From Pseudomonadota bacterium (GTDB lineage Bacteria > Pseudomonadota > Gammaproteobacteria > Burkholderiales > Burkholderiaceae_C), in the NCBI GenBank assembly GCA_020161775.1, contig JAIUOW010000028.1, positions 1 to 32,637 on the forward strand: a stretch of 32,637 nucleotides of DNA. The letters are read 5' to 3'. Under the pieces are notes generated by a model that worked only from the letters and a program-made list of their open reading frames with translations, was not told the origin of the DNA and did not search any database. How positions within the stretch are numbered: position 1 is the stretch's first letter; the number at the start of each line of letters is the position of its first letter. The translations under genes and the position numbers were made by a program. Below are positions 16,303 through 32,432 of this stretch, piece after piece.

Positions 16303-16770
16303 TCAGCCGATCTGTGCAATCAGCTCGATTTCGACGCAGGCGCCCAGCGGAATCTGGGCCACGCCGAAGGCGCTGCGCGCGTGCGCGCCACGGTCGCCAA
16401 AGACCTGGCCAAACAGCTCGCTGGCGCCGTTGGTGACCAGGTGCTGCTCGGTGTAGCTGCCGGTGGAATTGACCAGGCTCATGAGCTTGACGATGCGCGT
16501 CACCTTGTTGAGATCGGCGCCAGCGGCCACGCAGGCGGCATGCAGCGTGCCCATCAGGTCGATCGCGATCGCGCGGGCAGCCAGCTTGCCTTCGTCGGTG
16601 GTCATGTTGGCGCCCAGCTGCCCCACCCAGGGCTTGCCGTCCTGGCGGGCGATATGGCCGCTCAGGAAGATCAGGTTGCCGGTCTGTACGAAGGGCACGT
16701 AGGCCGCAGCGGGCACGGCCACCGGCGGCAGGGTGATGTTCAGTTCTTTCAGCTTGTCGTAAACGCTCAT
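16303..16770 (-). CDS. RidA family protein (enamine/imine deaminase-like)
   Basis: This 155-aa protein belongs to the RidA/YjgF/UK114 family, trimeric cytosolic proteins that hydrolyse reactive enamines and imines. The signature Arg is kept (R132 in AHARSAFGV), as are IFLSGHIA and the C-terminal CVEIELIAQI. It belongs to the longer subgroup with an N-terminal extension (MSVYDKLKELNITLPP), not classic archetypal RidA. Its start codon overlaps the stop of the transglutaminase gene (ATGA), making it the last gene of the amidoligase-type operon. A function in that pathway is suggested only by this coupling. Confidence 0.9.
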   Translation of the reverse strand: MSVYDKLKELNITLPPVAVPAAAYVPFVQTGNLIFLSGHIARQDGKPWVGQLGANMTTDEGKLAARAIAIDLMGTLHAACVAAGADLNKVTRIVKLMSLVNSTGSYTEQHLVTNGASELFGQVFGDRGAHARSAFGVAQIPLGACVEIELIAQIG

Positions 16771-17675
16771 GGGTTGGGCTCCTGTGGGTCAGTATCGGTG
16801 ACGGGTTCCACCGTCACGCCGACATTCAGTGTATGCCGCTCACCCCCATGAATCACGCCGCGCACCGGTGAAACATCTGAATAGTCGCGCCCCACGGCCA
16901 GCGTCACGTAGTCCTCGCCGCGCGCGCGGTTGTTGGTCGGGTCCAGGTCATGCCAGGCGCCGCCGCCGTCGCGCCCCGGCGACCACACCGCCACCCAGGC
17001 GTGCGACGCGTCGCTGCCCACCAGGCGCGGTTGGCCGGGTGGCGGCTCGGTCAGCAGGTAGCCGCTGACATAGCGCGCGGGCAGCCCCATGCCACGCAGG
17101 CAGGCGATCATGATGTGGGCGAAGTCCTGGCAGACGCCGCGGCGCTGCGCCAGCGATTCCAGCGCGGGCGTGTTGACTTCGGTGGCCTGGGACTCGTACT
17201 CAAAATCCTCGTGGATGCGTTCCATCAGGTCCCAGGCGGCTTCCATCAGCGGCCGGTCGGCCGAGAAGCTGGGGCGGGCATAGGCCACGAAGTCGTCATG
17301 GCGCGGCACATAGGGCGACGGGAAGGTGAATTCGGTCGCAGCGTCATACGCGGCGCCGCGGTGGTAGCGCATGCGCTCGCGCACCTGCTCCCAGGGCAGG
17401 CCGGGCGCGGGTGCCGGGGGGGCGGTGGTGGACACCACGCTGTGGGCCACCACGATCAGCTCGTCATGCGCCGTCGGCAGGTTGAAGAACGCGCGGGTAT
17501 TGCCATACACGTCCATGGCCTCGGTCTGCTGGGCCGGCTCGGGCGTGATGGCCAGCGTGTGGCTGACCAGCGCCTGCCCGTCGCCCTCGCGCGGCTTCAG
17601 GTGCGCCATGTGCTGGGCATTCTTGACGGGCGGTGCGTAGTCGTACACCGTTTCGTGGATCACGCGCAGGAGCAT
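16767..17675 (-). CDS. Transglutaminase-like family protein
   Basis: This 302-aa cytosolic protein has an N-terminal beta domain (LLRVIHETVYDYAPPVKNAQHMAHLKPR, the transglutaminase N-terminal type) and a papain-like transglutaminase core with C182 in GVCQDFAHIM, H225 in SDASHAWVAVW and an Asp in WHDLDPTNN. The bacterial relatives are thought to act as peptidases or amidases, or to move acyl groups. The start is ATG at 17675, preceded by CAGGAAA; 52 more upstream codons are open but overlap the preceding gene and do not look like the family. It is 14 bp after the fused ATP-grasp gene. Confidence 0.92.
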   Translation of the reverse strand: MLLRVIHETVYDYAPPVKNAQHMAHLKPREGDGQALVSHTLAITPEPAQQTEAMDVYGNTRAFFNLPTAHDELIVVAHSVVSTTAPPAPAPGLPWEQVRERMRYHRGAAYDAATEFTFPSPYVPRHDDFVAYARPSFSADRPLMEAAWDLMERIHEDFEYESQATEVNTPALESLAQRRGVCQDFAHIMIACLRGMGLPARYVSGYLLTEPPPGQPRLVGSDASHAWVAVWSPGRDGGGAWHDLDPTNNRARGEDYVTLAVGRDYSDVSPVRGVIHGGERHTLNVGVTVEPVTDTDPQEPNP

Positions 17676-17689
17676 ATGAATTTCCTGCG

Positions 17690-20275
17690 CTATGCGCCGA
17701 CACTTTGGCGTGCGTCGGAGTGCGTGAAATAACGCGCGCTCAACGCGTCCGACAACAGCCAGGCCGCATTGGCGCAGCGTTCGAGCTCGCCGATGAGTGC
17801 CGCGTAGCGGCCGTCGGCATAGCGTGCACACAAGACCTCGAGCGTCCAGGCCTTGGGGTCGGGCACGGTTTGCGCGATGTCGGGTATTTCGCCGGCGGCC
17901 GTGCCCTCCAGCTTGGCCAGGCGCCCGCGCAGCGTCTGCGCCACCCAGCCCAGCGAGCGGGGGTTGTCGCGGTCCATCACCAGCAGGTCCACCAGCGCGG
18001 GCACGTCATGGCGCTGCTGGTATTGCGAATGGAAGGTGATGGTGCTGTCAAACAGCGCCACCACGGCCTCGAAGCCGCCTTCGTCAAACACCGCGCCGGT
18101 CTCAAAGCTCTGGGCCAGCGCCGACGCCAGAAAGCCCAGACGCTCGATGTGCCGCCCGCTGGACAGCAGGCGCCAGCCGTCGTCGCGCGTCATGCGGTCG
18201 GTTTGTGCGCCTGTCATGGCGGCGGTGTAGCCATTCACGGTGTCCAGGATGCGCATGGCTTCCACCGGCGAATAGTCGCCGTCTTCGGTGCAGATGGCGC
18301 ACTGGCGGAAGAATTCGGTTTCGGCCCGCACGATGACGTTCCATTGCTCCTGCGACAGGCGTTCGCGCACGGCCGACGCCGCGCTTTTGAGTGCGCGAAG
18401 GTTGTAGCCCACGCTGGTGGCGTGCGCGGTATCGGCCAGCGCGGCGATCAGGGATCGCTCGAACACGCGCCGCGCATGGGTGGCCGGCGGCACACCCTCC
18501 AGCACCAGCGCATGCTGCGCGGCCAGTTCACCCAGCCACACCAGCAGCGGCTGGGACGACTGGTCTTCGCCGTTGAGGCATTCCAGGATGAGGCGGGCCA
18601 GGCGGATGGAGTTTTCGGTGCGTTCGGTGTAGCGGCCCAGCCAGAACAGGTTTTCGGCGGCGCGGCTGGTCACCAGGCCGCTGCGGTGGGTCACGGCCGG
18701 GCCGGGCTGGTCGTGCGCCAGCAGCGTGGTGGTGTCCACCTCGCCGTCGGTCAGCACCCAGACGTCGGCGCTGCTGCCGCCGCGCTGCATGGAGGCAATT
18801 TCGTGGTCGGCGCTGGCAATGCGCGCCAGCCCGCCGGGCAGCACCCGCCAGGATTGCGCGCCGTCGCTCACGGCAAACACGCGCAGCAGCACCGAGCGCG
18901 GCGCAATATGGTCGCCCGAGAGGTCGGCCTTCCAGGTGGGCATCTGCGACAGTGGCATGTAGGCCTGCACGGTGTGCTCGTCGCCCTGGCGCACGATGCG
19001 CCCGGCCCATTCGTCCAGCCCGCGGCGCGACAGCGACCGGCCCAGCACGGCCGACATGTCCCCGCCCGGCCAGGTGGGCTTGATGACGCTTTCGGGCAGC
19101 TGGGGCAGCACGGCCTCCATGGCGGCGCGCTCGCCGCACCACCAGGTGGCCAGCGACGGCAGGCTCAGTTCTTCGCCCAGCAGGTGGCGCGACAGCGCCG
19201 GCAGAAAACCCAGCAGCGCGGTGGACTCAAGGAACGCCGAGCCCGGCGCATTGGCCACCAGCACGTTGCCCGCGCGGATGGCTTGCAGCAAGCCGGGCAC
19301 GCCGAGGCGCGAATCGCTGCGCAGCTCCAGCGGGTCCAGGAATTCATCGTCCAGCCGCTTGAGCAGGCCGTGCACCGGCTGCAGGCCCTGCAGCGTCTTG
19401 AGGTACAGGCGCTGGTCGCGCACGGTGAGGTCGCTGCCTTCCACCAGGGTCAGGCCCAGGTAGCGCGCCAGGTAGGCGTGCTCGAAATAGGTTTCGTTAT
19501 AGGGGCCGGGGGTGAGCAGCACGATGCGCGCGTCCGCGCCGCCGGGGCTCGTCTGGCGCAGGCCATCCACCAGCGCGCGGTAGCAGGCCGCCAGGCGCTG
19601 CACGTGCATGTCGCGAAAGGCCTCGGGGAACAGGCGCGAGGTGATCAGGCGGTTTTCCAGCAGGTAGCCCAGGCCGGACGGCGCCTGCGTGCGCTGCGAC
19701 ACCACCCACCAGTGGCCGTCGGCGCCGCGCGCGAGGTCAAACGCCGCAATGTGCAGGTGCGTGCCGCCCACGGGCGGCACGCCATGCATGGCGCGCAGGT
19801 AGCCGGGGTGGCCCTGCACCAGCGCGCTGGGCAGGAAGCCGTCGGCCAGCAGCCGCTGCGGGCCGTACACGTCGGCCATGATGCGGTCCAGCAGCCGCGT
19901 GCGCTGCAGCACGCCGGCTTCCACACGGCGCCAGCTTTCGGGCGAAATGATCAGCGGGAACAGGTCCAGCGACCAGGGGCGCTGCGGCCCGTTGGCGTCG
20001 GCATAGACGTTGTAGGTGATGCCGTTGTCTCGCACCTGGCGTTCCAGGTTGACGGTGCGGCGGTTCAGGTCATTGAAGCCTTCGCGGCCCAGATTTTCAA
20101 AGAAGCGGGCCCAGTGCGGCGTGAGCGGCGCGCTGGCCGTGGCGCCCACGCTGCCCCGCAGCTCATCAAAATGCCCGGCGGCAGCGGGCGGCGCCAAGGC
20201 CGCCGCCAGATCCGCAGGGGCTTCCTGGGCGTCGGCGGCAAAGAGGGAATCAGCTGAATCGTTGCGATGGTCCAC
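17690..20275 (-). CDS. Fused circularly permuted ATP-grasp and alpha-E domain protein
   Basis: This 861-aa protein fuses what the plus arm encodes as two genes. Residues about 55-520 are a type 2 circularly permuted ATP-grasp (LLTPGPYNETYFEHAYLA, LDDEFLDPLELRSDSRLG, VIKPTWPGG). Residues about 535-850 are an alpha-E domain (ENLFWLGRYTERTENSIRLA, IERLGFLASAL). Compared with the 499-aa paralogue, E186-D187-N188 become S193-Q194-R195, Asp453 becomes Leu463, Asn484 becomes Ser495, and the GAGGYG loop is lost; K399 is kept. The ATP-grasp may thus be inactive. The start is GTG at 20275, with AGGA upstream. It lies between the two transglutaminase genes. Substrate unknown. Confidence 0.9.
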   Translation of the reverse strand: MDHRNDSADSLFAADAQEAPADLAAALAPPAAAGHFDELRGSVGATASAPLTPHWARFFENLGREGFNDLNRRTVNLERQVRDNGITYNVYADANGPQRPWSLDLFPLIISPESWRRVEAGVLQRTRLLDRIMADVYGPQRLLADGFLPSALVQGHPGYLRAMHGVPPVGGTHLHIAAFDLARGADGHWWVVSQRTQAPSGLGYLLENRLITSRLFPEAFRDMHVQRLAACYRALVDGLRQTSPGGADARIVLLTPGPYNETYFEHAYLARYLGLTLVEGSDLTVRDQRLYLKTLQGLQPVHGLLKRLDDEFLDPLELRSDSRLGVPGLLQAIRAGNVLVANAPGSAFLESTALLGFLPALSRHLLGEELSLPSLATWWCGERAAMEAVLPQLPESVIKPTWPGGDMSAVLGRSLSRRGLDEWAGRIVRQGDEHTVQAYMPLSQMPTWKADLSGDHIAPRSVLLRVFAVSDGAQSWRVLPGGLARIASADHEIASMQRGGSSADVWVLTDGEVDTTTLLAHDQPGPAVTHRSGLVTSRAAENLFWLGRYTERTENSIRLARLILECLNGEDQSSQPLLVWLGELAAQHALVLEGVPPATHARRVFERSLIAALADTAHATSVGYNLRALKSAASAVRERLSQEQWNVIVRAETEFFRQCAICTEDGDYSPVEAMRILDTVNGYTAAMTGAQTDRMTRDDGWRLLSSGRHIERLGFLASALAQSFETGAVFDEGGFEAVVALFDSTITFHSQYQQRHDVPALVDLLVMDRDNPRSLGWVAQTLRGRLAKLEGTAAGEIPDIAQTVPDPKAWTLEVLCARYADGRYAALIGELERCANAAWLLSDALSARYFTHSDARQSVGA

Positions 20276-20355
20276 GTCATCCTATTGTCACATTGCACAC
20301 GGGGGCGGGCCATGCCCATGTTGCATGACAACGACGCCCCGATTGGATGCCTGCC

Positions 20356-23300
20356 TCAACGCTGGCCCGCGCGCCGCAGGTCCAGGGTGAACGGGAATTC
20401 ACGGCTGCCCGCCACGTTGATGGTGGCTGGCGGCACGTCCATCTGGCCCGGCGTGTGGCCCATGCGGAAAAACCGCGCCATGCGGCGGCTTTCGGCCTCG
20501 TAGGCGTTCACGGGGAAGGTGTCGTAGTTGCGCCCGCCCGGGTGGGCCACGTGGTACTGGCAGCCGCCCAGCGAGCGCTTCATCCAGGTGTCCACGATGT
20601 CAAACACCAGCGGCGCATGCACGCCGATGGTGGGGTGCAGCGCCGACGGCGGGTTCCAGGCCTTGTAGCGCACGCCCGCGACAAATTCACCCATGGTGCC
20701 GGTGGATTGCATGGGCAGCGCCTGGCCATTCACGGTGATGACGTAGCGGCTTTCGTTCAGGCCGGTCACGCGCACCTCGATGCGCTCCAGCGACGAATCC
20801 ACATAGCGCACGGTGCCGCCAACGGCGCCTTCCTCGCCCATCACATGCCAGGGCTCCAGCGCGTTGCGCAGCGTCAGCTCGATGCCGCGCGACTGCACCT
20901 CGCCCACCAGCGGGAAGCGGAATTCAAAATGCGGCGCGAACCAGGCCGTGTCAAACGCGTAGCCGGCCTCGCGCATTTCGGCCAGCACGTCGTTCAGGTC
21001 CATCTTGACGAAGGTGGGCAGCAGGAAGCGGTCGTGCAGCTCGGTGCCCCAGCGGGTGGCCGGCGCCTTGTACGGCGACTTCCAGAAGCGCGCGATCAGC
21101 GCGCGCAGCAGCAGTTGCTGCACGACGCTCATGCGGGCATGGGGCGGCATCTCGAAAGCGCGCAGCTCCAGCAGGCCCAGGCGGCCGGTGGCGGAATCGG
21201 GCGAGTACATCTTGTCGATGCAGAACTCGCTGCGGTGGGTGTTGCCGGTCACGTCGATCAGGATGTTGCGCAGCGTGCGGTCCACCAGCCAGGGCGGCAT
21301 GTCCTGGCCGTACACCTCGCGGTTGCGCTCGATCTCGCGCAGGGCAATTTCCAGCTCGTACAGCTGGTCGTTGCGGGCTTCGTCCACGCGCGGCGCCTGG
21401 CTGGTGGGGCCCACGAACATGCCGCTGAACAGGTAACTGAGGCTCGGATGGTTGTGCCAGTACAGGATGAGGCTGGCCAGCAGTTCGGGCTTGCGCAGGA
21501 ACGGGCTGTCGGCCGGCGTGGCGCCGCCCATCACGAAGTGGTTGCCGCCGCCGGTGCCGGTATGGCGGCCGTCGGTCATGAATTTTTCCGCCGACAGGCG
21601 CGATTCAAACGCGGCCTGGTACAGGAACTCGGTGTGCTCCACCAGTTCGCGCCAGTTGTGCGCGGGGTGGATGTTGACCTCGATCACGCCCGGATCGGGC
21701 GTGACCTGCAGCAGCTTCAGGCGGGCGTCGCGCGGCGGCGGGTAGCCCTCCAGCACGATCTTCACGCCCAGGGTTTCGGCCGTGGCCTCGATGGCGGCCA
21801 GCAGGTCCAGGTAATCCTCCAGCCGCGCCAGCGGTGGCATGAAGACGTAGAGCACACCGTGCTTGCTGCCGATCTGTTCCGCCTTCGGGCCGTTGGCACG
21901 GCGCGGGTCGCGCGCCTCCACGCACAGCGCGGTGCGGGTGTAGCCGTGGGCGGATTCAAACCGCGTGGGCGGCTGCATGAAGCCGTCTGGCTCGGGCTGG
22001 CCGGGCGCACGCGCGTTGGCCGCGCCCGGGCCACCCGGCTGGCCCGGCCCGCCCTGGTGGATGCGCTGGGCCTCGCCCGGGGCGCTGGCGCCGGCCAGGT
22101 AGGGCAGGTCGTGGCCTGCCGCGCCTGCGCCTGCCTCCGCAGGCGGGGTGGCATAGCGGGCCTGCAGCGCGGCCGCGGCGGGCAGCGGCCCCTGCGGCGC
22201 GGTCGGGTCCTGCTCGATCAGGTAGGGGTAGTCAGCTTTGCTGACCCAGGGCAATGAATCCAGCGGAAGGCGGTAACCCATAGGCGAATCGCCGGGGATC
22301 AGGTACATGCGCTCGTCGCGGTAGAACCAGGGGCCGGTGCTCCACAGGCTGCCGGCCAGGCGCGGCCCCGAGCCAGCCGCGGGCTGCGGGTTGGGCTGCA
22401 GGGGCAGCACGTAGCCCACCACGCTGTCCAGCTTCTGCTCGAACACGCGGCGCAGGCGGGCGCGTTCCAGCTCGTCGTCCAGGCGCGAATCAAACGGGTC
22501 CACGTTGACCGGCAGGCGGCGCTCGCGCCACAGGTAATAGAACACGTCCTCATAGCCGGGCTGGATGAAGCGGCTGCTCAGGTTCAGCTTGCCGGCCAGC
22601 GTCTCGGCAAACCGGCGCGCGTCTTCGCTGGTGTAGTGGTGGGCGTCGCGTTCGTCGGCAAACAGGGCCGGGTTGCGCCACACCGGCTGGCCGTCGGCCC
22701 GCCAGCAGATCGACAGCGCCCAGCGCGGCAACTGCTCGCCGGGGTACCACTTGCCCTGGCCAAAATGCAGAAAGCCGCCGTCGCCGTATTCGGCGCGCAG
22801 CTTGTGCACCAGCTCGGTGGCGTAGCCGCGCTTGGTGGGGCCCAGCGCGTCGGTGTTCCACTCGGGCGCATCACGGTCGGACACCGCCACGTAGGTGGGC
22901 TCGCCGCCCATGGTCAGGCGCACGTCGCCGGCCTGCAGCTGCGCGTCCACCGCGTCGCCCAGGGCCAGCACCCTGGCCCATTGCTCTTCGGTGTAGGGCT
23001 TGGTCACGCGCGGCGATTCATGGATGCGCGTCACCACCATGTGGTGGGCAAAGTCCACCTCGGCCTTGTCCACGCCGCCCTCGATGGGCGCGGCGCCCGA
23101 GGGCTGCGGCGTGCAGGCCAGGGGGATGTGGCCTTCACCCGCCATCAGGCCCGAGGTGGCGTCCAGCCCGATCCAGCCCGCGCCGGGCAGGTACACCTCG
23201 CACCAGGCGTGCAGGTCGGTGAAGTCCACCGTGGTGCCGCTGGGGCCGTCCAGGGACTTCACATCGGGCACCAGCTGGATCAGGTAGCCCGACACAAAGC

Positions 23301-23895
23301 GCGCGGCCAGGCCCATGTGGCGCAGCAGCTGCACCAGCAGCCAGCCCGAATCGCGGCAGGAGCCGCTGGCCAGCTTCAGCGTCTCCTCGGGCGACTGCAC
23401 GCCCGGCTCCATGCGGATCAGGTACTTGATGTCGCGCGCTACCTGCTGGTTCAGCCCCACCAGGAAGTCGATGGTGCGGCGCTGCTTGCGGTCGATCCTG
23501 TCCAGGTAGGCCTTGACCAGCGGCGTCATGGGCGCGGTGCTGAGGTAGGGCGCCAGCTCCTCGCGCACCATGGGCGCGTACTTGAACGGGAAGTTCTCGG
23601 CCTCGGGCTCCAGGAAAAAGTCGAACGGGTTGTACACCGCCATCTCGACCACCAGGTCCACCGTGACCTTGAATTCGGTGGTCTTTTCCGGGAACACCAG
23701 GCGCGCCTGGTAGTTGGCAAAAGGGTCTTGCTGCCAGTTGATGAAATGGCCCGCGGGCTCGACCTTGAGCGAGTACGAAATGACGTTGCTGCGGCAATGC
23801 GGCGCCGGTCGCAACCGTATGACCTGCGGCCCCAGGTTCACCGGGCGGTCGTACTTGTAGTGGGTGACGTGGTTCAGGGCGGCATGGATGGACAT
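20356..23895 (-). CDS. Large transglutaminase-DUF2126 protein
   Basis: This 1179-aa cytosolic protein starts with a transglutaminase N-terminal beta domain (SIHAALNHVTHYKYDRPVNLGPQ) and a core with C180 in ASGSCRDSGWL, H229 in DLHAWCEVYLP and D245 in GLDATSG. From about residue 320 (RLTMGGEPTYV) to the end is DUF2126, which is always found with such transglutaminases; it contains DGRHTGTGGGNHFVMGG and HPSLSYLFSG motifs like a carboxylate-amine ligase fold. A Gly/Pro/Ala-rich linker (about residues 575-645) splits DUF2126. ATG 23895 is chosen at the start of homology; the frame is open far upstream but antisense to comEC. It is the first gene of the minus arm, 80 bp ahead of the fused protein. 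Confidence 0.92.
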   Translation of the reverse strand: MSIHAALNHVTHYKYDRPVNLGPQVIRLRPAPHCRSNVISYSLKVEPAGHFINWQQDPFANYQARLVFPEKTTEFKVTVDLVVEMAVYNPFDFFLEPEAENFPFKYAPMVREELAPYLSTAPMTPLVKAYLDRIDRKQRRTIDFLVGLNQQVARDIKYLIRMEPGVQSPEETLKLASGSCRDSGWLLVQLLRHMGLAARFVSGYLIQLVPDVKSLDGPSGTTVDFTDLHAWCEVYLPGAGWIGLDATSGLMAGEGHIPLACTPQPSGAAPIEGGVDKAEVDFAHHMVVTRIHESPRVTKPYTEEQWARVLALGDAVDAQLQAGDVRLTMGGEPTYVAVSDRDAPEWNTDALGPTKRGYATELVHKLRAEYGDGGFLHFGQGKWYPGEQLPRWALSICWRADGQPVWRNPALFADERDAHHYTSEDARRFAETLAGKLNLSSRFIQPGYEDVFYYLWRERRLPVNVDPFDSRLDDELERARLRRVFEQKLDSVVGYVLPLQPNPQPAAGSGPRLAGSLWSTGPWFYRDERMYLIPGDSPMGYRLPLDSLPWVSKADYPYLIEQDPTAPQGPLPAAAALQARYATPPAEAGAGAAGHDLPYLAGASAPGEAQRIHQGGPGQPGGPGAANARAPGQPEPDGFMQPPTRFESAHGYTRTALCVEARDPRRANGPKAEQIGSKHGVLYVFMPPLARLEDYLDLLAAIEATAETLGVKIVLEGYPPPRDARLKLLQVTPDPGVIEVNIHPAHNWRELVEHTEFLYQAAFESRLSAEKFMTDGRHTGTGGGNHFVMGGATPADSPFLRKPELLASLILYWHNHPSLSYLFSGMFVGPTSQAPRVDEARNDQLYELEIALREIERNREVYGQDMPPWLVDRTLRNILIDVTGNTHRSEFCIDKMYSPDSATGRLGLLELRAFEMPPHARMSVVQQLLLRALIARFWKSPYKAPATRWGTELHDRFLLPTFVKMDLNDVLAEMREAGYAFDTAWFAPHFEFRFPLVGEVQSRGIELTLRNALEPWHVMGEEGAVGGTVRYVDSSLERIEVRVTGLNESRYVITVNGQALPMQSTGTMGEFVAGVRYKAWNPPSALHPTIGVHAPLVFDIVDTWMKRSLGGCQYHVAHPGGRNYDTFPVNAYEAESRRMARFFRMGHTPGQMDVPPATINVAGSREFPFTLDLRRAGQR

Positions 23896-23902
23896 GCGGC
23901 AG

Positions 23903-23930
23903 ATACTAGCAAGGTCCGAGCCATGGGCAA
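23903..23930 (-). promoter_or_regulatory. Candidate promoter of the DUF2126 operon
   Basis: On the minus strand TTGCCC (23930-23925) and TAGTAT (23908-23903) are separated by 16 bp, and the -10 ends 7 nt before the ATG, predicting a leaderless mRNA. The -35 lies inside the 18-bp tandem repeats, so repeat number would change the upstream promoter context. Confidence 0.4.
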
Positions 23931-23962
23931 GGTCCGAGCCATAGGCAAGGTCCGAGCCAGTG
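23909..23962. repeat. Three tandem 18-bp repeats between DUF2126 and comEC
   Basis: Three head-to-tail units start at 23909, 23927 and 23945, each GCAAGGTCCGAGCCA plus three variable bases; the first 15 bases are identical in all three. They fill half of the 105-bp divergent intergenic region. Possible roles are binding sites for a regulator in phase (18 bp is under two helical turns) or a slippage-prone spacer. Confidence 0.85.
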
Positions 23963-24000
23963 GTGATGACGGTGGGGCCAGTCCGTGGACAATGCTCGCC

Positions 24001-26421
24001 ATGCCAGGCACACAAGCACCCAGGGAGGGCGGCACGGCGCTGATCGCGCCCGTGCTGGGCGCCAGCGTGGCGGGCGCCGCGCTGCAGCTGCAGCAGCCGA
24101 CGCTGTGGCCGGTGGCCGTGTACGTGGTTTTCACCGTCGCAGGCCTTGCCCTGCTGGCGCTGTCGGCCTCCAGACGGCTTGCAAGCCCCTGGCCCGTGCT
24201 GCTGGCGCTGACCGGCGCGCTGCTGGCCGGCGGCGGTGCCTGCGGCTGGCGGGCCCAGGCCTTTGCCAGCCAGGCGCTGGCGCCCGCGCTGGAAGGCCGC
24301 GACCTGCGGGTGACCGGCGTGGTGGCCGCCATGCCCCAGCGCAACGAAACCGGGCTGCGCTTTCGCCTGGCGGTGGAATCGGCCTGGCTGGGGGCGCAAG
24401 AGGTACGCCTGCCGCCGCGGCTGCAGCTGGGCTGGTACGGTGGTGCGGGCGCTGGTGAGCTGACGCGCCAGCCAGCCGACCTGCGCGCCGGCGAGCGCTG
24501 GCAGATGACGGTGCGGCTGAAGGCGCCGCACGGCCACCTGAACCCGCACGGTTTTGACTATGAGCTGTGGCTGTGGGAGCAGGGCGTGCAGGCCACGGGC
24601 TATGTGCGCGCCGGGCCGCGCGAGGCGCCACCGCAACGCCTGGGCATGACCTGGCAGCACCCGGTGGAGCAGGCTCGCCAGGCCGTGCGCGACGACATCC
24701 TGGCGCGGGTGGACGACCGCCAGCGGGGCGGGATCGTGGCGGCGCTGGTCACGGGCGACCAGAACGCGATTGACCGGGCCGACTGGGACGTGTTTCGCGC
24801 CACCGGCGTGGCACACCTGATGAGCATCTCGGGCCTGCACATCACCCTGTTTGCCTGGGTGGCGGCGGCCGTGGTGGGCTGGCTGTGGCGGCGCAGCCCG
24901 CGGCTGTGCCTGGCGTTGCCGGCCCAGCATGCGGCGCTGGCCGGCGGCCTGCTGCTGGCCACCGGCTATGCGCTGTTCAGCGGCTTTGGCGTGCCCGCGC
25001 AGCGCACGGTGTGGATGCTGGCCACGGTGGCCGCGTTGCGCTTTGCGGGGCTGCGCTGGCCCTGGCCGCTGGTGTGGTTGCTGGCCTGCGCCGTGGTGGT
25101 GGCGCTGGACCCGTGGGCGCTGCTGCAGCCGGGCTTCTGGCTGAGCTTTGTGGCGGTGGGCGTGCTGTTTGCCACCGACGCCGGGCCCACCGGGCGGACG
25201 CGGGGCGCGGCGCACCACGTGCGCGCCCTGTTGCGCGAGCAGACCGTGGTGACGCTGGCCCTGACGCCGCTGACCTTGCTGCTGTTTGGCCAGGCGTCGG
25301 TGGTGGGGCTGGTGGCCAACCTGCTGGCCATCCCCTGGGTGACGCTGGTGGTGACGCCGCTGGCCCTGCTGGGTGTGCTGGCGCCGCCGCTGTGGGACGC
25401 CGCCGCGCTGGCCGTGCAGGCGCTGGCGGTGGTGCTGGCGTGGATGGCGGCGCTGCCGTATGCGGCGGTGTCGGTGGCCGCGCCGCCGCTGTGGGCCGGC
25501 GCGGCGGGCGTGCTGGGCGGCGTGGTGCTGGCCCTGCGCTGGCCCTGGCCGATGCGGCTGCTGGGCCTGCCGCTGCTGCTGCCGGTGCTGTTGTGGCAGC
25601 CTCCGCGCCCGGCGCCGGGCGCGTTCGAGCTGCTGGCGGCTGACGTGGGCCAGGGCAATGCCGTCATCGTGCGCACGGCCGCGCACACGCTGGTGTACGA
25701 CGCCGGCCCGCGCTACGGCCCCGAAAGCGACGCCGGCCACCGCGTGCTGGTGCCGCTGCTGCGCGCGCTGGATGAACGCGTGGATGTGCTCATGCTCAGC
25801 CACCGCGACGCCGACCACACCGGCGGCGCGGCGGCAGTGCTGGCCCAGCAGCCGCAGGCGCAGGTACTGGGCTCCATCGAACCGGGGCACGAGCTGCAGG
25901 CCCTGCGGCCCGTGGCGCCGTGCCAGGCCGGCCAGCGATGGCAATGGGACGGCGTGGGCTTTGAAGTGCTGCACCCCGCCCCTGGCGCACTGGCCGCGGG
26001 CGGCAAGCCCAACACGCTGAGCTGCGTGCTGCGCATCCAGGCCGCGCCCGGGGTGGACGGTGCGGGCGGCGCAGTGGCCCTGCTGGCGGGCGACATCGAA
26101 CAGCCGCAGGAGCAGGCGCTGGTCATGGCCGGCGCGAACCTGGCCGCCGACGTGCTGCTGGTGCCGCACCATGGCAGCAAGACATCGTCCAGCGCGGCCT
26201 TTCTGGACGCGGTGCAACCGGCGGTGGCGCTGGCCCAGGTGGGTTACCGCAACCGCTTTGGCCACCCGGCACCGGCGGTGCTGCAGCGGTATGCCGAGCG
26301 CGGCATCCGGGTGGCGGACACGCCGCGCTGCGGTGCCGCGCTGTGGCGGTCTGACGCGCCGCAGGCCGTGCAATGCCACCGGCACGCCGCGCAACGCTAC
26401 TGGCACCATCGCATTCCCTAG
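24001..26421 (+). CDS. comEC: DNA internalization competence protein ComEC/Rec2
   Basis: This 806-aa inner-membrane protein forms the channel that takes up single-stranded DNA in natural transformation. It has the three usual parts: N-terminal membrane and OB-like DUF4131 region (1-230), the Competence domain with HLMSISGLHITLFA near residue 271 and about ten membrane helices, and a C-terminal MBL nuclease-like domain with SHRDADHTGG near 600 and LVPHHGSKTSSS near 720. It looks intact, so uptake capacity is plausible. I prefer ATG 24001; ATG 23992 in the same frame overlaps a GACAAT -10-like hexamer. No Shine-Dalgarno is seen. It sits between the two arms of the amidoligase locus, diverging from one arm and co-oriented with the other. 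Confidence 0.95.
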   Translation: MPGTQAPREGGTALIAPVLGASVAGAALQLQQPTLWPVAVYVVFTVAGLALLALSASRRLASPWPVLLALTGALLAGGGACGWRAQAFASQALAPALEGRDLRVTGVVAAMPQRNETGLRFRLAVESAWLGAQEVRLPPRLQLGWYGGAGAGELTRQPADLRAGERWQMTVRLKAPHGHLNPHGFDYELWLWEQGVQATGYVRAGPREAPPQRLGMTWQHPVEQARQAVRDDILARVDDRQRGGIVAALVTGDQNAIDRADWDVFRATGVAHLMSISGLHITLFAWVAAAVVGWLWRRSPRLCLALPAQHAALAGGLLLATGYALFSGFGVPAQRTVWMLATVAALRFAGLRWPWPLVWLLACAVVVALDPWALLQPGFWLSFVAVGVLFATDAGPTGRTRGAAHHVRALLREQTVVTLALTPLTLLLFGQASVVGLVANLLAIPWVTLVVTPLALLGVLAPPLWDAAALAVQALAVVLAWMAALPYAAVSVAAPPLWAGAAGVLGGVVLALRWPWPMRLLGLPLLLPVLLWQPPRPAPGAFELLAADVGQGNAVIVRTAAHTLVYDAGPRYGPESDAGHRVLVPLLRALDERVDVLMLSHRDADHTGGAAAVLAQQPQAQVLGSIEPGHELQALRPVAPCQAGQRWQWDGVGFEVLHPAPGALAAGGKPNTLSCVLRIQAAPGVDGAGGAVALLAGDIEQPQEQALVMAGANLAADVLLVPHHGSKTSSSAAFLDAVQPAVALAQVGYRNRFGHPAPAVLQRYAERGIRVADTPRCGAALWRSDAPQAVQCHRHAAQRYWHHRIP

Positions 26422-26491
26422 GTCGGTACCGCACGATGTGGCCCAAAACAGGGCCCGGAACTTGCTATGCTGGTGGCAGGAGATAGCCTTT

Positions 26492-27991
26492 ATGCAGAAA
26501 TTCGACGAGATGTATGCCCAACTGCCGGGCACCGGTCAGACACAGACACAAGGCCAATCTCAGGGCCAGTCGCAGTTCCAGTTCCAGGGCAGCGACATAC
26601 GGGCGCATTACCAGGCGTATGCGCAATGGCTGGCGCGCCAGCCGGCCGACGTGATGCGCGCGCGCCGCGAAGAGGCCGAGATGATCTTCCGCCGCGTGGG
26701 CATCACCTTCGCGGTGTATGGCGCCAAGGACGAAGACGGCTCGGGCACCGAGCGGCTGATCCCTTTTGACCTGATCCCGCGCATCATCCCCGCCCACGAA
26801 TGGGCCAGCATGGAAAAAGGCCTGGTGCAGCGCGTGACCGCGCTCAACCGCTTTCTGCATGACGTGTACCACGACCAGGACATCATCAAGGCCGGCATCA
26901 TCCCCGCCGAGCAGATCCTGAACAACGCGCAGTACCGCCCTGAAATGAAGGGCGTGTACACGCCGCACCATGTGTATTCGCACATCGCGGGCGTGGACAT
27001 CGTGCGCGCGCCCAACGCCCAAGGCCAGGGCGAGTATTACGTGCTGGAAGACAACCTGCGCGTGCCCAGCGGCGTGAGCTACATGCTGGAAGACCGCAAG
27101 ATGATGATGCGGCTGTTCCCTGACCTGTTCTCAAGCCACCGCGTGGCGCCCGTCATGCACTACCCCGACCTGCTGCTGGAAACGCTGCGCGCGTCGGCCC
27201 AGCCCGGCGCGCCCGACCCGACGGTGGTAGTGCTCACGCCCGGCATGTACAACAGCGCTTACTTCGAACACGCCTTCCTCGCGCAGCAGATGGGCGTGGA
27301 GCTGGTGGAGGGGCAGGACCTGTTTGTGAAAGACCGCTACGTGTACATGCGCACCACGCGGGGCCCCAAGCGGGTGGACGTGATCTACCGCCGGGTGGAC
27401 GATGACTTTCTGGACCCTTCCGTGTTCCGCCCCACGTCCACGCTGGGCTGCGCGGGCCTGCTGGACGCGTACCGCGCGGGCAATGTGTCGCTGTGCAACG
27501 CGATCGGCACCGGCGTGGCGGACGACAAGTCCATCTACCCCTACGTGCCCAAGATGATCGAGTTCTACCTGGGCGAGAAGCCCATCCTGAACAACGTGCC
27601 CACCTACATGTGCCGCAACCCGGACGACCTGAAATACACGCTGGCCAACCTGAAGGACCTGGTGGTCAAGGAAGTGCATGGCGCGGGCGGCTACGGCATG
27701 CTGGTGGGCCCGGCCGCCACCAAGGCCGAGATTGAGGACTTCCGCAAGGCGGTGGAGGCCAACCCCAGCGGCTACATCGCCCAGCCCACGCTGAGCCTGT
27801 CCAGCTGCCCCACGTTTGTGGACAGCGGCATTGCGCCGCGCCACATTGACCTGCGCCCCTTTGTGCTGAGCGGCAAGGAAGTGCAGATGGTGCCCGGCGG
27901 CCTGACGCGCGTGGCGCTGAAGGAAGGCTCGCTCGTCGTTAACTCGTCTCAAGGTGGCGGCACCAAGGACACCTGGATTCTGGAGGTCTAA
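26492..27991 (+). CDS. Circularly permuted type 2 ATP-grasp protein
   Basis: This 499-aa cytosolic protein is a stand-alone circularly permuted ATP-grasp (formerly DUF404/DUF407), predicted to activate a carboxylate with ATP and join it to an amine. Candidate nucleotide and metal residues are present: E186-D187-N188 in VLEDNLRVPSG, K393 with the Gly loop GAGGYGMLVG, D453-x-R in IDLRPF, and N484 with GGGTKD. The N-terminus (residues 16-33) is Gln-rich, QTQTQGQSQGQSQFQFQG, an odd low-complexity tail before the conserved domain. The ribosome site AGGAGA (26478-26483) is strong. It lies 70 bp after comEC and 3 bp before alpha-E. Confidence 0.93.
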   Translation: MQKFDEMYAQLPGTGQTQTQGQSQGQSQFQFQGSDIRAHYQAYAQWLARQPADVMRARREEAEMIFRRVGITFAVYGAKDEDGSGTERLIPFDLIPRIIPAHEWASMEKGLVQRVTALNRFLHDVYHDQDIIKAGIIPAEQILNNAQYRPEMKGVYTPHHVYSHIAGVDIVRAPNAQGQGEYYVLEDNLRVPSGVSYMLEDRKMMMRLFPDLFSSHRVAPVMHYPDLLLETLRASAQPGAPDPTVVVLTPGMYNSAYFEHAFLAQQMGVELVEGQDLFVKDRYVYMRTTRGPKRVDVIYRRVDDDFLDPSVFRPTSTLGCAGLLDAYRAGNVSLCNAIGTGVADDKSIYPYVPKMIEFYLGEKPILNNVPTYMCRNPDDLKYTLANLKDLVVKEVHGAGGYGMLVGPAATKAEIEDFRKAVEANPSGYIAQPTLSLSSCPTFVDSGIAPRHIDLRPFVLSGKEVQMVPGGLTRVALKEGSLVVNSSQGGGTKDTWILEV

Positions 27992-27994
27992 AAA

Positions 27995-28954
27995 ATGTTG
28001 TCACGCACCGCAGACCACCTGTTCTGGATGTCGCGCTACACCGAACGCGCAGAAAACACCGCCCGCATGCTGGACGTCAATTACCAGACGTCGCTGCTGC
28101 CGCAGTCCGCCGCCGTGGCCCAGGTGGGCTGGCAGGGCCTGCTGTCCATCAGCGAGCTGCTGCCGGCCTATGGCGCGCAGCATGGCGAAATCACGCCGCA
28201 GCGGGTGATGGAATTCATGGTCAAGGACGAAAACAACCCGTCGTCCATCGTCAGCTGCCTGAAGGCCGCGCGCGAGAACGCCCGCGCCGTGCGTGGCTCG
28301 CTGACCACCGAAGCCTGGGAGACACAGAACCAGACCTGGCTGGAAGTCAACCGCATGCTCAAGGCCGGGCAGTTCGAGCGCGACCCGGGCCAGTTCTTTG
28401 AATGGGTGAAGTTCCGCTCGCACCTGTCGCGCGGCGTGACGGTGGGCACCATGCTGATGGACGAGGCGCTGCACTTCATGCGCCTGGGCACGTTCCTGGA
28501 GCGCGCGGACAACACCGCGCGGCTGGTGGACGTGAAGTTCCACGCCGTGCAGAGCGACTTTTTTGGCGCGGCCACCGAGCAGGACCAGGAATACGACTTC
28601 TACCACTGGAGCGCGATCCTGCGCAGCGTCAGCGGCTTTGAGATCTACCGCAAGGTGTACCGCGACGTGATCAAGCCCGAGCGCGTGGCCGACCTGCTGA
28701 TCCTGCGCCCGGACATGCCGCGCTCATTGCACGCCAGCATGAACGAAGTGCTGAGCAACCTGGAGATGGTGGCGAACGACCAGTCCCATGAAACCATCCG
28801 CCGCGCGGGCAAGCTGCGCGCGGACCTGAAGTGGGGCCACATCGACGAAATACTGGCCACCGGCTTGCACGCCTTCCTGACGCAGTTTCTGGACCGCGTG
28901 AACGAACTGGGCGCGCGCATCAGCCGCGACTTCCTGATCCCCGCATCGGCGTGA
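27995..28954 (+). CDS. Stand-alone alpha-E domain protein
   Basis: This 319-aa all-helical protein is a full alpha-E domain (DUF403), named for conserved glutamates in helices. The first motif is FWMSRYTERAENTARMLDV (residues 10-28) and the second is GTFLERADNTARLVDVKF near 167. It has no signal or membrane segment. Members almost always accompany the permuted ATP-grasp and are predicted partners in amide bond synthesis, though the exact role is not known. It begins 3 bp after the ATP-grasp stop. Its counterpart is the C-terminal third of the fused protein on the other strand. Confidence 0.93.
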   Translation: MLSRTADHLFWMSRYTERAENTARMLDVNYQTSLLPQSAAVAQVGWQGLLSISELLPAYGAQHGEITPQRVMEFMVKDENNPSSIVSCLKAARENARAVRGSLTTEAWETQNQTWLEVNRMLKAGQFERDPGQFFEWVKFRSHLSRGVTVGTMLMDEALHFMRLGTFLERADNTARLVDVKFHAVQSDFFGAATEQDQEYDFYHWSAILRSVSGFEIYRKVYRDVIKPERVADLLILRPDMPRSLHASMNEVLSNLEMVANDQSHETIRRAGKLRADLKWGHIDEILATGLHAFLTQFLDRVNELGARISRDFLIPASA

Positions 28955-28961
28955 GCACGGC

Positions 28962-30527
28962 GTGAACCCGCTGGAGCAGGCCGCCGCGCTGCTGGCGGGC
29001 GGGCGCTTTCATGAGGCGCTGGCCCTGTACGGGCAGCTGCTGCAGCGCGAGCCCGCATCGGCCGAAGCCCGCCAGGGGCTGGCGCAGGCCTGTGCAGGCG
29101 CCGGCGACGCCTGGGCCGCCGTGGCATGGCTCAATGACGCCTGCCGCGTGGCGCCCACTGATCCTGCCCCGGCCCACCGCCTGGCCGAGCTGCTGCTGAA
29201 CCTGAAGCAGCACGACCAGGCCCTGCCGGTGTATCAGCGGCTGTACGACCAGTTCAACGCGCGCGACCGCGCCACGCTGCTGCATTACGGCTTTTGCCTG
29301 GAACACACGGGCGACCTGGACGGCGCCGTGCGGCTGTACCGCGAAGCCATCGCGCAAGAGCCCGACTTCATGGAAGCGCATGTGGACCTGGCCGGCGTGC
29401 TGTGGCGGGTGGAGGACCACGCCGGCGCGCTGGCCCATGCGCGGCGCGCGGCAGCCATTGCGCCGCAGCACCCGTATGCGGTGCGCATCCTGGGCACGGC
29501 GCTGCTGCACATGAACCAGCTGGACGAAGCGCAGGCACAACTGCGCCGGGCGCTGGAGTTGCAGCCGGGCTTTCCGTTGGCGGCGGTCGATTTGTCGCTG
29601 GCTCAATTGCTGGCCGGGCAACTGGCTGAGGGCTGGGCGCAGTACAGCGCCCGCTGGAGCGACACGGTACGCATGGCGCGCCCACGCTTTTACAACCCTG
29701 CGCTGGAATGGCAGGGCCCGCAGCGCCAGCCGATCAAGGGCAAACGCATCATCGTGTACGCCGAGCAGGGGCTGGGCGACGTGATCCACTTCATCCGCTA
29801 TGTGCGGCTGCTGCAGGCCGACGGCGCCAGTGTGGTGGCCGTGGTGCAGCCCGAGCTGGTGACACTGCTGGAAGGCATGCCCGGTCTACAGTGCTTCAAG
29901 CCCGGCGCGGACGATGTGGTGGCCGACTGCCACGTGGCCCTGCTGGACCTGCCCATGCACTACGGCACCACACTGGCCAACATACCGGCAGAGGTGCCCT
30001 ACCTGCAGGCGCAGGCGGCCAAGGTAGCGCAGTGGCGCGAACGACTGAAGCCGTGGGATGGCAGGCGCAAGGTGGGCATTGCCTGGGCCGGCTCACCCAC
30101 GCAGGTGAACAACCGCAACCGCAGCATGCCGCTGAGCGCGTTGGCGCCGCTGCTGGATGTGAAAGGCGTGCAATGCTTCAGCCTGCAAAAGGGCCTGGGC
30201 GGTGCATTCACAGACATGACGCCCGATGCCAACGCGCTGGTGGACCTGACAGGCGAATGGCGCGACTTCAGCGACAGCGCCGCCATGATCGAATGCCTGG
30301 ACTTGGTGATTACGGTGGACTCAGCGGTGGCCCACCTGGCCGGCGCACTGGGCAAACCTGTGTGGATGCTGCTGGGGCCGAACCCCGACTGGCGCTGGCT
30401 GCTGGGCCGCGAGGATTCGCCGTGGTACCCGACGATGCGGCTGTTCAGGCGGGGGTTTGGGGAGGAGAGGGAGGTGCAGGTGGGGAGGGTGGTGAAGGCG
30501 TTGGCGGTACCGCTGTACACACCCTGA
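28962..30527 (+). CDS. TPR protein with GT9-like glycosyltransferase domain
   Basis: This 521-aa protein has several tetratricopeptide repeats in residues 1-225 (for example EALALYGQLLQREPASAEAR, GAVRLYREAIAQEPDFMEAH, EAQAQLRRALELQPGFP) and then a glycosyltransferase-B-like domain (about 250-515) with IIVYAEQGLGDVIHFIRYVR, KVGIAWAGSP and the C-terminal LVITVDSAVAHLAGALGKPVW motif of heptosyltransferase-like enzymes. No signal peptide is seen. It starts with GTG 7 bp after the alpha-E gene, so it is probably in the same transcript. Donor and acceptor are unknown; protein or surface glycan modification are both possible. Confidence 0.85.
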   Translation: MNPLEQAAALLAGGRFHEALALYGQLLQREPASAEARQGLAQACAGAGDAWAAVAWLNDACRVAPTDPAPAHRLAELLLNLKQHDQALPVYQRLYDQFNARDRATLLHYGFCLEHTGDLDGAVRLYREAIAQEPDFMEAHVDLAGVLWRVEDHAGALAHARRAAAIAPQHPYAVRILGTALLHMNQLDEAQAQLRRALELQPGFPLAAVDLSLAQLLAGQLAEGWAQYSARWSDTVRMARPRFYNPALEWQGPQRQPIKGKRIIVYAEQGLGDVIHFIRYVRLLQADGASVVAVVQPELVTLLEGMPGLQCFKPGADDVVADCHVALLDLPMHYGTTLANIPAEVPYLQAQAAKVAQWRERLKPWDGRRKVGIAWAGSPTQVNNRNRSMPLSALAPLLDVKGVQCFSLQKGLGGAFTDMTPDANALVDLTGEWRDFSDSAAMIECLDLVITVDSAVAHLAGALGKPVWMLLGPNPDWRWLLGREDSPWYPTMRLFRRGFGEEREVQVGRVVKALAVPLYTP

Positions 30528-30552
30528 CAAGGTATGCCCTGTATCTCCTTCT

Positions 30553-30580
30553 GGGAGGAGGCAAAGCCTGCGCACCTCCC
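30553..30580 (+). terminator. Nested hairpin after the TPR gene, possible terminator
   Basis: GGGAGG (30553-30558) pairs with CCTCCC (30575-30580), and inside it AGGC pairs with GCCT around AAA. It starts 25 nt after the stop codon at the end of the plus arm. No T-tract follows, so it may be a pause or Rho-assisted end and not a classical terminator. Confidence 0.4.
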
Positions 30581-30592
30581 CACATTGGATGA

Positions 30593-30620
30593 TTTATCGA
30601 TGCTGCTTGCTACCTAGAAT
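30593..30620 (+). promoter_or_regulatory. Candidate promoter for the HNH gene
   Basis: TAGAAT (30615-30620) is a good -10; TTTATC (30593-30598) is a weak -35 at 16 bp. The local sequence is much richer in A and T than the preceding operon. The leader would be about 40 nt. Confidence 0.45.
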
Positions 30621-30668
30621 GGCTCAGATTGCGGGTTTTGTGAAAATCTATTCGGCAGAAGTGAGACC

Positions 30669-31148
30669 ATGGCGCGAACCGACAATTTGCTGTACATCGA
30701 GACCGAAGACGCGTGTGCGAACTGCGGCCTAAGGGATGTTCGTGCACTCACAGTTCATCACATCGAACAATCAGCCCCGAAGAATGAGGATTACGACAAC
30801 AAGATCGTCTTGTGTCACAACTGTCATCAATGCCACCATAGCGGCAAAGGGCCCACCAAAGCACAAATTGAAGAAATCAAGTCGCGTCTAATTGTTAAGA
30901 CCTTGACTCGCCTTGGCCTCAACGCGTTGAAAAGGGCCCACAGAGGCTCGGTCGTCATCGCGATGCCTTTTACCGTGGACCATTTGGTCGAATGGGGATA
31001 TCTCAGGCACGTTCAGGATTTGGCGTTTTGGGAGGAAGATGAAGATGAGCCAAAATTGCTCGAGACAGGCAAGCAAGTGGCATCTGAAGCGGCCTATGCG
31101 ATAACGGAAAAAGGAAAAAGATTGCTGGAAAAATGGAAGCTGAAGTAG
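30669..31148 (+). CDS. HNH-type zinc nuclease-like protein
   Basis: This 159-aa cytosolic protein has an HNH zinc-finger core: CANC (C16, C19), VHHIE (H30, H31), N44 in DYDNKI, and LCHNCHQCH (C49, C52). That order matches small HNH endonuclease domains. The C-terminal 70 residues (TVDHLVEWGYLRH, AAYAITEKGKRLLEKWK) look like a winged helix, which could bind DNA or control expression. Base use is less GC-rich than in the flanking genes and AAA/GAA codons are frequent, suggesting recent acquisition. No methylase, restriction partner or integrase is beside it. A nuclease role in defence is possible but not shown. Confidence 0.72.
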   Translation: MARTDNLLYIETEDACANCGLRDVRALTVHHIEQSAPKNEDYDNKIVLCHNCHQCHHSGKGPTKAQIEEIKSRLIVKTLTRLGLNALKRAHRGSVVIAMPFTVDHLVEWGYLRHVQDLAFWEEDEDEPKLLETGKQVASEAAYAITEKGKRLLEKWKLK

Positions 31149-31255
31149 CGCCGATCTGGTTTTTCAAAATAGTCCGTTTAGCCGTCTTGTCGCCTTTTGT
31201 GTTTATGCGCCTTCTTCCCGCGAGCTGCTGGTTGCACGCACTTTTGCCACCACCA

Positions 31256-31873: not shown

Positions 31874-31954
31874 AGCGAAGGCGCTACGCATGACTACCGC
31901 TGGGCGGATCTACACAAACGCTGATTATTTTCAAAGTCAACGGCTTACTCCCTC

Positions 31955-32413: not shown

Positions 32414-32432
32414 CGCAGCCTCTGGCGTCACC

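Follow-up and report, generated by a model that had tools for sequence, protein, structure and literature searches.

The 32,637-nucleotide stretch of DNA analysed here, referred to as the window, is the whole of one contig (JAIUOW010000028.1; G000:C28 in our numbering) of the 4.36-Mb genome of a bacterium of the Burkholderiales (Burkholderiaceae_C, assembly GCA_020161775.1). It carries two sets of genes that face away from each other on either side of comEC. Arm A, on the minus strand and reading leftwards, consists of TGD (a transglutaminase domain fused to DUF2126), AGaE_A (a fused circularly permuted (CP) ATP-grasp and alpha-E protein) and TG_A (a stand-alone transglutaminase-like protein), followed by a RidA-like gene. 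Arm B, on the plus strand, consists of the CP-ATP-grasp AG_B and the alpha-E protein aE_B, and a Pfam scan found no transglutaminase in it. Its protein families place the locus in the amidoligase/Anbu system that was predicted in 2009. Our reading, to which we assign a probability of about 0.45, is that it represents the Burkholderiales form of the CP-ATP-grasp/alpha-E/transglutaminase/DUF2126/Anbu system and would serve as a nitrogen-stress amide ligase/hydrolase in which one ATP-grasp is active and the other a pseudo-ATP-grasp. The family assignments, the intact thiol triads, the loss of site residues in arm A, a dependence of arm A on arm B, operon linkage, promoter motifs and co-occurrence with Anbu were all observed computationally.

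The preliminary description of this DNA had asked whether the two arms occur independently across genomes, and they do not. In a set of 100 genomes (G000–G099, the window's own and 99 relatives), ATP-grasp matches of at least 900 bases were classed by bit score, those above 540 as B and the rest as A (fused), a rule by which fragments are misclassed. A, B and DUF2126 occurred together in 42 genomes, B alone in 19, B with DUF2126 in eight, A with DUF2126 in four, A with B in two and A alone in one, while 24 had none of them. Both full-length ATP-grasp classes were present in 44 of the 100 genomes; 37 of these have the two genes on the same contig, no more than 18.8 kb apart, and the remaining seven do not. 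Only five genomes had A without B, all of them fragmented or incomplete; four of the five carry a second, cut or partial ATP-grasp match that was left unclassed, and the fifth (G008) is 65% complete.

A wider set comprised 299 genomes of the phylum Pseudomonadota (judged from named relatives) that were at least 95% complete. This survey used match counts per genome, without a genome-by-genome A/B class. A CP-ATP-grasp scored above the cut-off in 172 of the 299 and DUF2126 in 96; weak sub-cut-off ATP-grasp matches in G072, G120 and G207 are not included in the 172. No genome in this set had DUF2126 without a CP-ATP-grasp (96 of 96 have one), and 127 had neither. At least two ATP-grasps were found in 91 of the 96 DUF2126 genomes versus 11 of the 76 other ATP-grasp genomes (Fisher P = 1.9e-29; relatedness is ignored in this and the other co-occurrence P values). 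The dependence was also seen where the arms are apart: 39 loci had TGD and AGaE_A with no arm B in the stretch, and among 20 of their genomes that were tested for arm B, 19 encode a B-type ATP-grasp elsewhere, the exception being a 3.0-Mb metagenome-assembled genome (G406, locus L101). A and DUF2126 go with B, and B often stands alone, so the dependence is one-way. In a genome with a single ATP-grasp match, G298, we also noticed a strongly diverged DUF2126 homologue (L152, 6721–9706) whose pieces show 29–37% identity.

Gene order was compared in 99 annotated loci, the best 80 of 587 from a contig scan plus 19 from relatives, many of them cut by contig ends. A layout like that of the window, with AG_B and comEC divergent from TGD, was seen in 23 of them, 18 of which are complete in all six genes. 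Sixteen loci show a single co-directional run (AG_B-aE_B-TGD-AGaE_A-TG_A), and five have the order TGD-AGaE_A-TG_A-AG_B-aE_B. The arms are unlinked in the Pseudomonas loci, where arm A is found by itself, and in several Paraburkholderia loci. Outside this set, in Actinomycetota, the two arms would likewise lie at separate loci, with two such loci in Mycobacterium tuberculosis. The earlier proposal that the arms work as one pathway is thus partly supported by co-occurrence, linkage, one-operon versions and promoter motifs (see below); it has to be amended in that the dependence is one-way, the arms are unequal and there is a further, unlinked partner, Anbu.

We could also observe copies on mobile elements. 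All five genes form one co-directional run on a 90.7-kb IncFII plasmid of Enterobacter roggenkampii (L153, 3123–12314), about 2 kb from arsC; by megablast, this run matched no other record of the plasmid collection and no complete E. coli genome. On a megaplasmid of Acidithiobacillus caldus (L157, 843–3373 and 8001–15435), a transglutaminase-DUF2126 match, which is interrupted, lies with ATP-grasp and alpha-E genes in the neighbourhood of ntrC and glnL, and an aliphatic amidase gene is found downstream. A plasmid of Granulicella tundricola (Acidobacteriota; L158, 9001–15799) carries the arm A cassette of transglutaminase-DUF2126, fused ATP-grasp and transglutaminase, in a stretch without arm B. 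Homologues of AG_B were found in four phage-collection records (H122–H125), namely two 'Acinetobacter phage MD-2021a' contigs of 232–305 kb and two faecal phage contigs; these may be bacterial DNA in those records.

The two ATP-grasps are not equivalent. As a correction to the preliminary description, the ATP-grasp of arm A lacks most of the residues that are invariant in arm B. A comparison of 53 B-type and 90 A-type sequences gave 176 columns at least 97% conserved in B, of which 66 are kept by at least 90% of the A-type sequences and 58 by fewer than 10%. Eight probable site residues of AG_B (E186, N188, K346, K393, G400, G402, D453 and N484), chosen after the A/B contrast had been seen, were then counted with seven more sequences included. 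All eight were present in 57 of 57 B-type proteins, while none of the 93 A-type proteins had more than three (none in 21, one in 52, two in 19 and three in 1). N188 is replaced by R in all 93, and AGaE_A of the window retains K393 only. Presumably, the eight residues have catalytic roles, and we take the E-x-N pair (E186/N188) to be the magnesium site known from permuted ATP-grasps such as eukaryotic glutathione synthetase and GspS. The ATP-grasp of arm A is therefore apparently dead, a pseudo-ATP-grasp that would have lost its ATP-using site.

These sequences were thinned to 111 rows for a quick tree, in which A and B are parted by a single branch with a Shimodaira–Hasegawa-like approximate likelihood ratio test (SH-aLRT) value of 100, so the degeneracy fits one old subfamily. 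The A-type proteins have near-invariant residues of their own, e.g. R195, G203, E261 and Q497. The ratio of nonsynonymous to synonymous substitution rates (dN/dS) against three relatives was 0.20–0.41 for AGaE_A, 0.11–0.16 for AG_B and 0.31–0.46 for comEC. AGaE_A is a maintained protein under purifying selection, not a decaying gene. Residues 31–498 of AG_B match the solved structure 3n6x by sequence with 718 bits (E = 4.8e-215), whereas AGaE_A reaches only 283 bits; we take 3n6x to be the 'putative glutathionylspermidine synthase' of Methylobacillus. A sequence link from AG_B to ligand-bound glutathione(spermidine) synthetases was sought, and nothing apart from 3n6x was found at E ≤ 10. The phrases 'inactive', 'pseudo-' and 'degenerate' ATP-grasp were not found in the open-licence PubMed Central (PMC) literature. 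For the ATP-grasp encoded in the Anbu operon of Yersinia bercovieri, release of phosphate from ATP has been reported (PMC6376114; statements from this and the other PMC papers refer to the portions of their text available to us). This protein would be B-type by its operon, not by alignment, and may thereby lend indirect support to B-type activity.

The preliminary description had given each arm a transglutaminase, but the two transglutaminases both belong to arm A, leaving arm B without one. The catalytic triad of TG_A is nearly invariant in its homologues (C in 84, H in 84 and D in 83 of 84), and that of the TGD transglutaminase domain is intact in 99 of 99; among the transglutaminases of B operons (TG_B), Ser replaces Cys in one of eight (L095). 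The 1179-aa TGD had been recognised as a transglutaminase, although its fusion partner, the 'putative amidoligase' DUF2126 (PF09899), had gone unnamed. The AlphaFold model of TGD is of moderate confidence (predicted local distance difference test (pLDDT) 75.6), and its transglutaminase domain matches 3isr with a target template modelling (TM) score of 0.67–0.73. For the DUF2126 part, we found only a weak match to one glutamine-synthetase structure among the 50 listed (rank 35, E = 0.062, target TM 0.31), and we made no fold assignment from it. DUF2126 was not found by name in the open-licence PMC literature. The model of aE_B is good (pLDDT 90.3), but gave no match in the PDB at E ≤ 0.001, so that no fold was assigned to alpha-E either.

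Looking at the locus alone, one would conclude that Anbu is absent here; a whole-genome search, however, found it encoded on contig C12 (129583–130407), unlinked to the arms. The protein was named from a proteasome-family match, 54% identity to the protein behind ATP-grasp, alpha-E and transglutaminase in G036 and the published operon order. The gene (1584–2408 of locus L052, on G000:C12) begins at the end of a gene that we read by eye as mutS, with an apparent ATGA overlap. Across the 100 genomes, ATP-grasp and Anbu were both present in 69, ATP-grasp only in seven, Anbu only in one and neither in 23 (Fisher P = 1.8e-15). An Anbu homologue thus accompanies 69 of the 76 ATP-grasp genomes versus 1 of the 24 others, and in 41 of the 70 Anbu genomes no ATP-grasp is found within 15 kb of it on the same contig.

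Both arms start behind a sigma54-type promoter motif. We scored the 120 bp upstream of each gene for a -24/-12 pattern with weights set by hand from the consensus (maximum 29, threshold 25; the window sequences are counted). Of 6000 random 120-bp stretches, 1.1% reach 25 and 0.12% reach 27. The threshold was reached upstream of 60 of 98 TGD and 26 of 53 AG_B genes, but only 4 of 90 AGaE_A, and none of the 53 aE_B, 84 TG_A, 31 comEC and 28 RidA genes. After thinning of similar upstream DNA, the counts were 34/68 for TGD, 23/48 for AG_B, 3/73 for AGaE_A, 0/64 for TG_A, 0/27 for comEC and 0/24 for RidA, i.e. the contrast between arm starts and other genes survives. The motif follows the gene order as well: where TGD lies on the same strand behind aE_B, 0 of 16 reach 25, while 22 of 27 do so where TGD is divergent from comEC. 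The nearest relatives, L043 (score 27) and L054 (24), have one motif at the same position 5' of TGD. In the window the element is present in three tandem copies (23908–23959, minus strand), as opposed to the single copy in L043 and L054. The TGD leader would be very short, because the motif is so near to the start codon.

Exact NtrC dyads (GCAC-N7-GTGC) were found in relatives upstream of TGD (9/97), AG_B (10/52) and AGaE_A (3/89), but not of comEC (0/30) or RidA (0/27), compared with 1.6% for random sequence. Among the 18 unlinked arm-B loci (L133–L150), nine have a dyad within 400 bp, and six reach a sigma54 score of 25 within 200 bp (five Paraburkholderia and one Pseudomonas).

A link to nitrogen is already known from the published regulation of homologues, and what is new in this analysis is the two-promoter layout around comEC. 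In Burkholderia cenocepacia H111, loss of ntrC lowers the expression of four adjacent genes (I35_5080-5083) 6.0- to 9.4-fold, and the cluster is listed among the joint sigma54/NtrC targets (PMC5491218). In Pseudomonas putida, nitrogen limitation raises PP_2686-2688 11- to 15-fold in the wild type (PMC7801951), an increase of 6.6- to 11.1-fold was reported for PP2685-2687 (PMC3325844), and nitrate versus ammonium changes PP_2685 and PP_2688 by log2 values of 4.4 and 4.0 (PMC8050072). Domains of the system co-vary with urea metabolism in marine metagenomes (PMC3597751). In Sinorhizobium, the regulatory region of a COG2308 gene has been linked to nodule competitiveness (PMC8407117).

For catalysis, complex formation, regulation in this organism, substrate and product, we infer the following. 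Expression would most likely be switched on via sigma54 (with NtrC in relatives) at nitrogen shortage. AG_B, partnered by the helical alpha-E protein, would then use ATP to activate a carboxylate and make an amide bond, and TGD would contribute another ligase-like module, DUF2126, fused to a thiol transglutaminase/amidase. AGaE_A would be a catalytically dead ATP-grasp/alpha-E paralogue that pairs with AG_B/alpha-E and acts as a scaffold, binds the substrate or has a regulatory role. Removal or exchange of amide bonds would fall to TG_A and the unlinked Anbu.

Several observations speak against this scheme. Seven genomes that are at least 90% complete have B and DUF2126 without A, and in two others only DUF2126 is missing from the three; the remainder can therefore exist without A or without DUF2126. 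The assignment of E186/N188 as the metal site is probable, drawing on what is known of permuted ATP-grasps and not on a ligand-bound structure. K393 is mostly kept in the A-type proteins (68 of 93), and nucleotide binding by them may therefore be possible. AGaE_A exceeds AG_B in dN/dS by a factor of 1.7 to 2.5. The whole window contains seven sigma54-type sites of at least 25 on both strands, four of them at the arms, which is fewer than a Markov model predicts (6.25 per strand). The score alone proves nothing, and the argument rests on position and conservation. The 400 bp in front of each window arm were scanned for exact NtrC dyads and contain none, so no NtrC site is proposed for the window. 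The anbu gene of the window's genome, behind the apparent mutS, has no sigma54-type motif.

The published data also contain contrary results. The P. putida rpoN mutant still induces PP_2686-2688 14- to 20-fold, and PP_2685 shifts only 1.12-fold in the wild type of the same study (PMC7801951). The rpoN-mutant data speak against sigma54 dependence in that species; consistent with them, only 1 of the 10 arm-B loci L141–L150 (Pseudomonas and one other gammaproteobacterium) reaches 25. This retained induction lowers our confidence in the overall reading. Pull-downs with the Yersinia Anbu-operon proteins gave no specific interaction (PMC6376114).

A more specific version of the nitrogen-stress scheme seems to us possible, though it is put forward tentatively: the pseudo-ATP-grasp/alpha-E protein, conserved and of single origin, would be an obligate non-catalytic partner of its active paralogue and, with the DUF2126-transglutaminase and the dispersed Anbu, part of a single complex that both forms and undoes amide bonds during nitrogen starvation.

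It is also conceivable that the system tags proteins, as predicted in 2009: ligases would put amino acids or peptides on proteins, and Anbu and the transglutaminases would salvage nitrogen by taking the tags off or by degrading the proteins that bear them. This proposal is in print, summarised in PMC6376114 and PMC5666114. It would agree with the co-inheritance of Anbu and ATP-grasp, although they are unlinked here, and with the induction of homologues at nitrogen starvation. However, we know of no tag or tagged protein, and 7 of 76 ATP-grasp genomes have no detected Anbu. Moreover, Anbu showed no peptidase activity in the published assays and the Yersinia Anbu operon encodes no AAA+ unfoldase (PMC6376114). 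Protein tagging therefore appears doubtful to us.

The two ligase-type modules next to hydrolase-type modules could instead serve a soluble small peptide or amide metabolite, a nitrogen store or osmolyte that AG_B and DUF2126 would make and that the transglutaminases and Anbu would turn over. Nitrogen control of the homologues, the co-variation with urea-metabolism domains in marine metagenomes (PMC3597751) and amidase genes near the module on two plasmids would be in line with such a role. However, no exporter, carrier protein or other metabolite enzyme was seen in the conserved set, the loci having been searched only for the window's proteins, Anbu and TG_B, and neither glutamine nor glutamate stimulated the Yersinia ATP-grasp to release phosphate (PMC6376114). 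On balance, we regard a dedicated metabolite as rather unlikely.

A third alternative concerns the A-arm ATP-grasp itself, which might be alive with a rebuilt active site, formed by its own invariant residues (R195, G203, E261, Q497), and carry out a different reaction. The purifying selection on AGaE_A and the frequent retention of K393 would fit this as well. Yet the E-x-N pair, K346, the GGYGM loop and D453 are all lost together, and no site for a metal or a triphosphate is evident any more, which makes a rebuilt site improbable. Finally, the arms might be separate systems that are neighbours near comEC through old synteny, given that the comEC/RidA neighbourhood recurs with differing gene orders and that the arms are unlinked in Pseudomonas and several Paraburkholderia loci, but the one-way dependence even of unlinked arms (19 of 20), a sigma54-type motif for each arm with none for comEC, and the complete five-gene run on one plasmid make this very improbable.

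The features of the locus are listed in the table. The genes and sizes named in the preliminary description are real, as the scans of open reading frames and Pfam domains agree with them. The matches of the ATP-grasp, alpha-E and DUF2126 domains are far from chance: of the two copies of the CP-ATP-grasp (PF14403/PF04174), CP_ATPgrasp_2 (PF14403) scores 483 bits in AGaE_A and 551 in AG_B, Alpha-E (PF04168) 198 in AGaE_A and 334 in aE_B, and DUF2126 (PF09899) 1339 in TGD. Genome-wide, there are two alpha-E matches (PF04168), both in the window, and two Bact_transglu_N matches, both in arm A.

Table. Features of the two-armed locus in the window (TPR, tetratricopeptide repeat)
Feature	Position	Strand	Basis
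RidA-like protein (YjgF/L-PSP), 155 aa; membership unproven	16303..16770	-	Pfam PF14588/PF01042
TG_A, stand-alone transglutaminase-like, 302 aa, triad C182/H225/D245 intact	16767..17675	-	Pfam PF08379 + PF01841
AGaE_A, 861 aa, circularly permuted ATP-grasp (degenerate, probably a pseudo-ATP-grasp) fused to alpha-E	17690..20275	-	Pfam PF14403, PF04168
TGD, transglutaminase domain (C180/H229/D245) fused to putative amidoligase DUF2126, 1179 aa	20356..23895	-	Pfam PF08379, PF01841, PF09899
sigma54-type -24/-12 motif TGGCTCGGACCTTGCT, 28 bp 5' of the TGD start codon	23908..23923	-	score 27/29
Two extra tandem copies of the TGD sigma54-type motif, 18-bp period	23926..23959	-	motif scan
comEC, start uncertain	~23992..26421	+	Pfam PF03772, PF13567, PF00753
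sigma54-type motif GGGCCCGGAACTTGCT in the comEC/AG_B gap, 41 bp 5' of the ATG	26451..26466	+	score 25/29
AG_B, circularly permuted ATP-grasp, 499 aa, 8/8 family-invariant site residues	26492..27991	+	Pfam PF14403
aE_B, alpha-E protein, 319 aa	27995..28954	+	Pfam PF04168
TPR + GT9-like protein, 521 aa, directly 3' of aE_B	28962..30527	+	domain scan

Three neighbours, comEC, the RidA-like gene and the TPR/GT9-like gene, had been described with the locus, but we found nothing that ties them to the system. comEC is a bystander between the arms: it has no sigma54-type motif (0/31), its place changes and it does not adjoin the other genes in many loci. The motif is likewise lacking upstream of RidA (0/28), whose position varies and which adjoins comEC instead of TG_A in L035, L044 and L045. 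The TPR/GT9-like protein was matched in only 2 of the 99 loci, the close relatives L043 and L054, although some loci do not extend that far. A role in DNA uptake through ComEC was set aside, as there is no sign of co-regulation or constant linkage of the arms with comEC, and so was anti-phage defence, since none of the seven proteins matched PADLOC-DB 2.0.0 at E ≤ 0.001. The right end of the window (30001–32637), where the G+C content drops to about 56% and HNH endonuclease-like and LprI-like lysozyme-inhibitor genes are found, looks like a different or acquired stretch.

In 2009, Iyer et al. reportedly predicted a peptide-tagging/amidoligase system composed of a CP-ATP-grasp, a permuted glutamine synthetase-like ligase, alpha-E, transglutaminase and Anbu. 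Every one of these component families is encoded in the window's genome, which differs in that the genes are spread over two divergent arms around comEC, Anbu lies on another contig and the A-arm ATP-grasp is degenerate. The Anbu operon of Y. bercovieri comprises ATP-grasp, alpha-E, transglutaminase and Anbu (PMC6376114), and the same families occur in the nitrogen-induced PP_2685-2688 of P. putida. Compared by description and unaligned, neither operon is described with DUF2126 or a fused A-type protein; arm B of the window, unlike them, has no transglutaminase of its own and no linked Anbu. The B. cenocepacia cluster I35_5080-5083 resembles the window in combining DUF404/407 (ATP-grasp), DUF403 (alpha-E), a transglutaminase and a large transglutaminase in one NtrC-dependent cluster (PMC5491218; compared by text, unaligned). 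The rlo and RimK-RimB systems of Pseudomonas also join an ATP-grasp with transglutaminase-like and peptidase partners, but RloC is, going by what is stated there, related in sequence to RimK and not to the permuted family, RloB is a membrane-bound inactive transglutaminase and the protease is retropepsin-like (PMC12239564).

The system is widespread (ATP-grasp in 172 and DUF2126 in 96 of the 299 genomes), yet the literature that we have seen assigns it no reaction since the prediction of 2009. Taken with the two promoter motifs and the difference between the intact and the degenerate ATP-grasp, the nested dependence suggests nitrogen limitation as the condition of interest, and which protein may be expected to be the ligase and which the partner. 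For biochemical work, the plasmid that bears all five genes in one run would be a compact source. If the more specific version of the scheme is true, these genes would encode a pseudoenzyme-controlled bacterial tagging or storage cycle.

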